A stretch of 32,684 bases of DNA from Verrucomicrobiales bacterium. GTDB taxonomy: Bacteria; Verrucomicrobiota; Verrucomicrobiia; Verrucomicrobiales; DEV007. The stretch lies in assembly GCA_024641425.1 (NCBI GenBank), contig JAHEDC010000009.1:1-32684 (forward strand). Reading direction: 5' to 3'. Shown piece by piece: positions 28,198 through 29,860 of the stretch (position 1 is the first letter of the stretch; each line of letters starts with the position of its first letter). The position numbers were made by a program, and so were the translations under genes. The notes under the pieces were generated by a model that saw only the letters and a program-made list of their open reading frames with translations, was not told where the DNA came from and made no database searches.

Positions 28198-29100
28198 TCA
28201 CGGCTTTTCAAGCGTCACGAGCAAGCCACCGCCCAACGCCAGCGCCAAGCCGGCGAGTTGCGCCGCGTTCATCCCCTCGCCCAGCACGGCCCAGGCGAGA
28301 AAGACGGTCGCCATCGGCCCGACCGTCCCGATGACCGCAAATCGCGTCGCGCCCGCCCGACGGAGCCCGATGCCAAGCAGAAAGGACGGAATAAGCGTGC
28401 CGAAGACCGCCAGAATGAGCGCGTAACCATGAACCGCCGACGGCAGGCAGGCGAGCCCGGAAAGCGGATGCGTGGCGAGGAAATGCAGGATCACGAAGAC
28501 GCAGGAAATGCCGACAGCACACGCGGTGAAGCGCATCGCGCCGACCTCCCGGATCATCTTTCCGCTCGCGACCACGAAATAGGAGTACGTGACCGCGCTC
28601 CCGAAGACGAGCGCAACGCCCGCCAGTGTGTTCCCGTCGGAAGCCCGTGCTTCGCCTTCGCCCGCGTATCCGACGAGGATCCCCGCATAGGAAACCGCGA
28701 TCGCAAGCACCACGACGGGCTTCACTTTCACCTTCAGGAAAAGCGCGCTCCCGATCACGACCAGCGTCGGATACGTGTAAAGCACCATCCGCTCCATCCC
28801 GACACTGATGTGCCGCAGTCCGGCGAAATTCATCATCGCGGACAAATAGTAGCCAACGAAGCCGAGCAACGTCAACTGCGCCCACTGCCGGACGGTCAGC
28901 GCCGATTTCCCCCTTCCCGCAAGCCAGCCCGCGACGGCGAACCCCGGCAGCGCGTAGGCCATACGCAGCCCGAGCACCGTCACGGGGTCCGCGCCGAGTG
29001 CGAAGGCACACTTGATGAAGACGCCCTTCGACGAAAAGAGGATCGCACACGCAGCGACGATGGCGAAGGTCTGGAGGGAATACAGGCGGGATTTGCTCAT
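28198..29100 (-). CDS. DMT-superfamily transporter (EamA family)
   Basis: 300 residues with about ten hydrophobic helices in two five-helix EamA halves. The halves have the typical end-of-domain patterns: first VLGLRMAYALPGFAVAG and GMERMVLYTYPTLVVIGSALFL; second FGTLIPSFLLGIGLRRAGATRFAVIGTVGPMATVFLAWAVLGEGMNAAQLAGLALALGGGLLV. It probably exports a metabolite such as an amino acid or nucleotide-type compound across the inner membrane; the substrate is unknown. The start ATG 29100 has no ribosome-binding-like sequence. It lies only 37 nt after an intrinsic terminator on the same strand, so expression may depend on read-through. The PQQ-like gene follows with a 43-bp gap. Confidence 0.9.
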   Translation of the reverse strand: MSKSRLYSLQTFAIVAACAILFSSKGVFIKCAFALGADPVTVLGLRMAYALPGFAVAGWLAGRGKSALTVRQWAQLTLLGFVGYYLSAMMNFAGLRHISVGMERMVLYTYPTLVVIGSALFLKVKVKPVVVLAIAVSYAGILVGYAGEGEARASDGNTLAGVALVFGSAVTYSYFVVASGKMIREVGAMRFTACAVGISCVFVILHFLATHPLSGLACLPSAVHGYALILAVFGTLIPSFLLGIGLRRAGATRFAVIGTVGPMATVFLAWAVLGEGMNAAQLAGLALALGGGLLVTLEKP

Positions 29101-29137
29101 AAAATGACGTGGAGACTGAGCGGGATCTCCGGAGACG

Positions 29138-29166
29138 AAAAAACCCGCTCGGTGAGGAAGCGGGTT
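29138..29166 (-). terminator. Intrinsic terminator 37 nt upstream of the DMT transporter start
   Basis: On the minus strand AACCCGCT pairs perfectly with AGCGGGTT (plus-strand arms at 29142-29149 and 29159-29166) around a 9-nt loop, and the stem runs into a T-run (plus-strand A at 29138-29143). It can end the transcript of the upstream gene, or act as an attenuator for the transporter. Confidence 0.87.
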
Positions 29167-29199
29167 CGGCAGGGTCGGGATGATGGAAAAACCTCGAAG

Positions 29200-29316
29200 C
29201 TAATTGAGGATGGATGACGCCGGCTGAACTCCACTCCGGGCCGCGACCAAGCGGCCCTTGGAAATAATCCAAAGGAGCCCGTTGCGGAGGACGAGGGTGT
29301 TTCCGGCTTGCGTCAT
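29200..29316 (-). CDS. Possible 38-residue small ORF inside the leader
   Basis: ATG 29316 to TAG 29202 encodes a 38-residue peptide starting MTQAGNTLVLRNGLLWIISK and ending VQPASSILN. It has a hydrophobic patch (LVLRNGLLWIIS) and several basic residues. The start codon sits in the loop of the first stem, and no Shine-Dalgarno sequence precedes it. It has no cluster of one amino acid, as a classic attenuation leader peptide would. It could be a small membrane peptide, a leader peptide, or a chance frame within a structured RNA. Confidence 0.3.
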   Translation of the reverse strand: MTQAGNTLVLRNGLLWIISKGRLVAARSGVQPASSILN

Positions 29317-29365
29317 ACGCGGCTAAGAAACACCCGTAGGACGGGATTGCAAGCGGGGAACCGTT

Positions 29366-29860
29366 TCAGGGCGGAGTCCCGGATTCCCCTTGTTCGGGCA
29401 GATCGAGCTTCGAGATGCCCACTTCGAGATAGAAATCGTCACCAACCTTCACAAAATAAATCCCCTCTCCCGCCGTTTTTTCGGCAGCGTCCGTTCCTTT
29501 GAAAAGGTGTTTCGCTTCCCTGTAGAAATAGATCTGATCCGCATCATCGCGCGCTATTTTCAGCATCTCATCGTCGGCCCGGTTCGAAGCCTTGCGCCGC
29601 CGCCGATAGATGTCCTTCCCGTTAAGCTTGAATACTGGCTCCAACGGATTGTATTCGGCTCGGTCCAGATCGTAGAGTTCGTCATCGCCCAGACCGGTCG
29701 GCAGTCCGAACTCCTCGAGGGAATCGCGCTGGAGCCGATCATCGATGGTAATCACCGCCACAAGGGAAACGAGGAGCGCGAAGCCAAGCAGGATCTTGCC
29801 GGCGGTGCCACGGGTGGTATTGCTGCGGTCGGACATGGGAACTTCGCCACCATGCCCCAT
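29366..29860 (-). CDS. Single-pass membrane protein of unknown function
   Basis: About 164 residues from ATG 29860, which has AAGGGGG five bases upstream; a second in-frame ATG at 29836 is also possible. One transmembrane helix lies at about 22-40 (GKILLGFALLVSLVAVITI). A ~120-residue soluble part follows with DDELYDLDRAEYNPLEPVF, a basic RRRRKASNR patch and a beta-hairpin-like end (EGIYFVKVGDDFYLEVGISKLDLP). I do not recognise the family. It is divergent from dprA across 113 bp. The structured leader begins 28 nt after its stop on the same strand. Confidence 0.7.
   Translation of the reverse strand: MGHGGEVPMSDRSNTTRGTAGKILLGFALLVSLVAVITIDDRLQRDSLEEFGLPTGLGDDELYDLDRAEYNPLEPVFKLNGKDIYRRRRKASNRADDEMLKIARDDADQIYFYREAKHLFKGTDAAEKTAGEGIYFVKVGDDFYLEVGISKLDLPEQGESGTPP

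Follow-up and report, generated by a model that had tools for sequence, protein, structure and literature searches.

Does the DNA immediately ahead of an EamA-type transporter gene, in the 32,684-nt stretch of Verrucomicrobiales DNA analysed here (the window), control whether that gene is transcribed, and if so, in response to what? All three stems that the first-pass annotation had placed on the minus strand, namely a 9-bp stem, a 7-bp hairpin, and a terminator, are present (Table 1). The terminator was recovered by a terminator scan of the window, and its run of six Ts (29143-29138) leaves 37 nt to the transporter ATG at 29100, exactly as described. The same annotation had suggested that this leaves little room for a promoter belonging to the transporter itself, and a scan indeed found no promoter-like site between the terminator and the ATG. 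The minus strand from 29367 to 29100 folds more stably than its shuffles (-89.7 vs -72.6 kcal/mol, z -3.8). Two parts had gone unnoticed: a 38-codon leader ORF, and an 8-bp hairpin that encloses its Trp codon and shares bases with the 7-bp hairpin. Similar Trp-codon hairpins occur at related loci (L059, L090, L092, L095, and L049) and are absent from some others; it is possible that they act as pause hairpins.

Table 1. Features of the transporter leader region and the flanking genes, in window coordinates
Feature	Positions	Strand	Sequence	Basis or remark
Upstream protein, 156 aa	29366-29836	minus		No Pfam or NCBIfam match
Predicted leader promoter	29324-29352	minus	TTGCAA 29352-29347; 17-nt spacer; weak -10 TTCTTA 29329-29324	
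9-bp stem	29335-29327 and 29303-29295	minus	GGGTGTTTC and GAAACACCC	
Leader peptide ORF, 38 codons plus stop	29200-29316	minus	MTQAGNTLVLRNGLLWIISKGRLVAARSGVQPASSILN	Equivalent ORF in 24/24 leader loci
8-bp hairpin enclosing the Trp codon	29255-29275	minus	CCTTTGGA/TCCAAGGG	Fold and shuffles, z -2.0
Invariant Trp codon, likely sensor codon	29269-29271	minus	TGG	W in 24/24 leaders
7-bp hairpin	29257-29251 and 29244-29238	minus	GGGCCGC and GCGGCCC	Fold of the window
Antiterminator strand	29226-29237	minus	GGAGTGGAGTTC	Within the leader ORF, 3' of the Trp codon
Intrinsic terminator with T-run	29138-29167	minus	GAACCCGCTT 29167-29158; GAGCGGGTTT 29150-29141	
EamA (DMT) transporter, 300 aa, predicted regulated gene	28198-29100	minus		PF00892, E 1.6e-25

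A stable fold followed by a terminator would also suit a metabolite-binding riboswitch of an undescribed class, a reading that we regard as very improbable. No Rfam family reached its gathering score anywhere in the window, where matches were at chance level only (E up to 10), and no aptamer class was matched; the earlier statement that the layout belongs to no known class thus holds. The best weak matches, Trp_leader (RF00513, 16.2 bits against a gathering threshold of 41) and anti-hemB, both derive from the terminator arm. The genome of the window likewise has no match to RF00013 (6S RNA), and 6S RNA in this lineage may be divergent or missing. A DNA search of 56 relatives from the same family and order returned no similar RNA and no match to the window outside its own genome; homologs were therefore sought through the transporter. 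In the leaders found this way the 9-bp stem is not seen, and what is conserved is an open reading frame containing a W codon, which also argues against a riboswitch. Of the two mechanisms that the first-pass annotation had offered, riboswitch or leader peptide, attenuation by a leader peptide is the one that stands.

The search drew on GTDB contigs and on order, class, and phylum samples and yielded 24 loci (23 from Verrucomicrobiota and one from Cellvibrionales). The orthologs found first share 42-55% identity with the transporter, and each is preceded by a short Trp-containing ORF, a stretch rich in G, and an intrinsic terminator; a terminator of about -14 to -22 kcal/mol occupies the equivalent place in all 24 loci. 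The terminator is the one of the three stems that is conserved among relatives, the 7-bp hairpin (29238-29257) falling outside the conserved layout, and it sits between the leader ORF and the transporter gene, the arrangement of an attenuator. Since the gene upstream in the window lies on the same strand and has its end near 29366, the terminator could in principle be its plain 3' terminator, as the competing explanation had it, with the ORF and the pairing described below arising by chance. We consider this highly unlikely, because the leader and terminator accompany the transporter in the 24 loci, across several Verrucomicrobiota families, while the upstream genes change and are unrelated; the native pairing test (p 5e-6) also speaks against it. 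Orthologs of the upstream gene are not found beside the transporter, and in relatives they often precede a purH-like gene, so its adjacency to the transporter is particular to this genome. Comparison of the gene neighbourhoods by eye found nothing conserved.

The leader ORFs encode 20-38 aa, and the Trp codon lies 89-153 nt before the terminator, usually within the motif [L/I]-W-[L/I], which reads L-L-W-I-I in the window (further leader peptides are MANIRKTALTSNILWLGLWIIRRGAVSVM, MLRSRSLRPAAWLWIIQSAGFCGRTTRY, MRAIAAIIISAIRLWLIKPDGRSGDAVMH, MIRIASATLLNLLLWLRPVGRNVRAID, MAKRIKALLWIGGLPGPARRVFVV, and MLKLGKATIWILRPRAGTWSIAV). Among 18 representatives, L or I follows W in 17 and precedes it in 14; these flanks are kept at the amino acid level and their codons vary. 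Short ORFs suitably spaced from a terminator contained a W-[L/I] pair in 23 of the 24 loci, vs 1.25 expected from dinucleotide shuffles, and the full [L/I]-W-[L/I] motif in 19 of 24, vs 0.17 expected. The W-[L/I] motif was defined post hoc from the first loci, and the four loci fetched last (L114-L117) all fit it; at L036 and L091 the W to be aligned was picked by hand. Beyond W+2 the residues are variable, and the distance from W to the stop codon ranges from 27 to 69 nt. Near pairs of leaders showed no clear excess of synonymous over non-synonymous change and hence no clear coding constraint, as would be expected if only the W and the RNA matter. The L/I flanks could mean that aliphatic codons share in the sensing, or could stem from codon context or from the nascent chain.

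Where transcription begins was predicted from a TTG[AC] element, present 32-46 nt upstream of the leader ORF in 17 of 24 loci, against an expected 2.9. In the window this element is TTGCAA at 29352-29347, which would put the -10 at about 29329-29324 and the transcription start at or beside the leader ATG. This -10 is a guess that the generic promoter scan does not call; a scan of 28900-29700 gave no sigma-70-like promoter. The predicted position would place the 5' arm of the 9-bp stem in promoter DNA, overlapping the -10, and since the stem is also unseen in relatives, it is probably promoter DNA and no RNA element of an attenuator. It would also leave CGGGT (29336-29332) untranscribed. The first-pass annotation had proposed this CGGGT as the pairing partner of the terminator; it is probably promoter DNA, and the antiterminator is instead GGAGTGGAGTTC at 29237-29226.

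The antiterminator strand pairs with GAACCCGCTTC (29167-29157) through 11 bp with one bulge, and this is the best fold when a ribosome occupies the Trp codon. Under that condition the predicted termination in the window is 0.19; it is 0.92 when the ribosome has reached the stop codon, and likewise when none is present. A value as low as 0.19 arose in 23 of 1000 shuffles. The energy of the antiterminator-terminator duplex in the window, taken alone, was no better than that of shuffles (p 0.39). At each locus, the segment 3' of the Trp codon was measured for its pairing with the terminator 5' arm, and terminators were swapped among the 18 representatives for comparison. Native pairs were stronger than swapped ones (-19.7 vs -16.1 +/- 0.6 kcal/mol, p 5e-6), a result unchanged when the window was left out; an earlier swap test with 16 representatives gave p 1e-5. 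When a stalled ribosome was included in the folding of the 18 representatives, mean termination was 0.73, vs 0.91 in shuffles. Averaged over the representatives, stalls from about W-6 to W+1 favour antitermination, which is lost at W+2 to W+4, and the W thus marks the 3' edge of the control region. The window is less clean than this average, in that stalls at W+6 and W+7 favour antitermination too. Thermodynamic switching appears in the model at only about half of the loci; in the others, the antiterminator may act kinetically. The swap test, the stall profile, and the window values of 0.19 and 0.92 indicate a competing antiterminator that a stalled ribosome exposes, as an attenuator requires.

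We therefore favour, with good though not full confidence, a ribosome-mediated transcription attenuator upstream of the EamA transporter that most likely senses the supply of Trp-tRNA. RNA polymerase would initiate just upstream of the short leader ORF. A fast ribosome would cover the antiterminator strand on its way to the stop codon, the terminator would form, and no transporter would be made; a ribosome slowed at or just before the Trp codon would leave the downstream strand free to pair with the terminator 5' arm, and transcription would proceed into the transporter gene. Given the invariant Trp codon at the control position, the signal is most likely a shortage of charged tRNA-Trp, so that antitermination would set in when Trp runs low. 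This mechanism draws its support from sequence: a leader ORF with its Trp codon, a terminator and a pairing that competes with it, and the conservation of these parts across the clade. What we infer is where transcription starts, that the leader ORF is translated, what the signal is, and which substrate the transporter moves in which direction. Several observations weigh against a Trp attenuator. Classic systems have at least two regulatory codons and become less sensitive when there are fewer (PMC1183508); the window and most leaders have one W, and some have two or three, so that the two or more control-region Trp codons of a trpL-type leader are found in neither the window nor most of its relatives. 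To this may be added the loci without thermodynamic switching, the unexceptional duplex energy of the window, the lack of clear coding constraint in near pairs, and the constraint on L/I beside W, which would be superfluous in a sensor of Trp codons alone. Moreover, trpE is present in nearly all relatives searched, and in 30 relatives it was not preceded by any clear combination of a W leader and a terminator.

Alternatively, an antibiotic that blocks translation, or an inhibitor of TrpRS, could be what slows the ribosome in the same attenuator, and the transporter would then act as an efflux pump. The BmrB leader peptide attenuates the transporter genes bmrCD of Bacillus subtilis, a documented case of such control over a multidrug transporter (PMC4191407), and the DMT family includes exporters. 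As proposed here, a leader ORF and a terminator attenuate a transporter gene in that system; BmrCD differs in being an ABC transporter and in responding to antibiotics. Sensing of a general inhibitor would not require that the codon bordering the control region be an invariant Trp, and we consider this reading rather unlikely.

The flanks of the W bring a further sensor into view. In TnaC, a leader peptide with a transport gene among its targets, Trp is essential, and the peptide arrests the ribosome at its own stop codon and blocks Rho. By analogy, [L/I]-W-[L/I] in the exit tunnel would sense some molecule, be it free tryptophan or another, and the ribosome, once arrested, would free the antiterminator and induce an exporter. 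The L or I kept beside W despite varying codons would fit, as would a weak similarity of the transporter to YddG, an aromatic amino acid exporter of the same EamA/DMT type: the transporter matches TIGR00950 (amino acid/amine transporter family) and YddG (NF050091) below threshold, reaching for the latter 33.7 bits against a cut-off of 300, so that it stays unassigned. The weak NF050091 match recurs in five of seven clade members, and a search of solved structures with the transporter alignment gave no match. The leaders share with TnaC a peptide with Trp and a transport gene as target and differ in their intrinsic terminator and variable C-terminus: there are no conserved residues at fixed spacing between W and the stop codon, both the identity and the number of these residues vary (27-69 nt), and control calls for a ribosome that has gone no further than W+1, short of the stop codon. 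An arrest peptide of this type therefore seems quite improbable. We hold it unlikely, too, that the conserved [L/I]-W-[L/I] is a nascent-chain sensor of a new class, with the peptide itself and not the codon alone sensing tryptophan or a related aromatic and inducing a DMT exporter in Verrucomicrobiota.

How far the proposed attenuator extends was seen in a tree of 53 transporters, in which all 23 leader-bearing Verrucomicrobiota proteins fall into one clade (98/96). Every sampled member of this clade has the leader, and homologs outside it do not, except for the long-branched L049 of the Cellvibrionales. Given a single supported clade with leaders in all sampled members, the feature is, as far as these sequences tell, clade-wide and old, not a local accident. 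Of 34 EamA paralogs that are distant but belong to the same phylum, a single one had anything similar, a weak case. L049 (DDBK01000032.1; Gammaproteobacteria) carries its own leader, MSIIQIIKTSRVRLWLRPLSRFLVSG, and a terminator about 260-130 nt before its EamA gene; this would represent an independent gain or a transfer of an attenuator of the same kind. L051 (Myxococcota) passed the automatic motif scan and was left out of the count, its ORF resembling the tail of an upstream gene. In the last 130 nt before EamA, L051 and L052, also of the Myxococcota, have a promoter-like TTGACT followed by a GC-rich hairpin and six Ts; this unit has no Trp leader and is perhaps another attenuator.

Among known systems, the leader most resembles trpL of the E. 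coli trp operon in its short ORF with a Trp codon, its intrinsic terminator before the structural gene, an antiterminator that overlaps the leader ORF, and, at several loci, a hairpin at the Trp codon. It differs in its Verrucomicrobiota host, in its target (an EamA transporter, not biosynthesis), in its usually single Trp codon (trpL-type leaders have two or more), in its conserved L/I neighbours, in a stop codon that lies beyond the antiterminator strand, and in a predicted 5' UTR that is nearly absent. A 2010 survey described leader peptide systems as shown only in Proteobacteria and Actinobacteria, and itself added Firmicutes (PMC2965389). Our literature search, which most subscription journals lie outside, found no leader-peptide attenuator described for Verrucomicrobiota or for EamA transporters. 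The mechanism is thus of a known kind, and its clade-wide occurrence in Verrucomicrobiota before an EamA transporter appears to be new. Such attenuators conserve no more than a reading frame, one codon, and a covarying pairing, so that RNA family searches miss them while a comparison of orthologs can bring them to light. For a group of transporters labelled only as generic EamA, the leader points to tryptophan or aromatic amino acids, a physiological lead that can be tested; if Trp shortage is the signal, the transporter would join the response to tryptophan or aromatic amino acid starvation.
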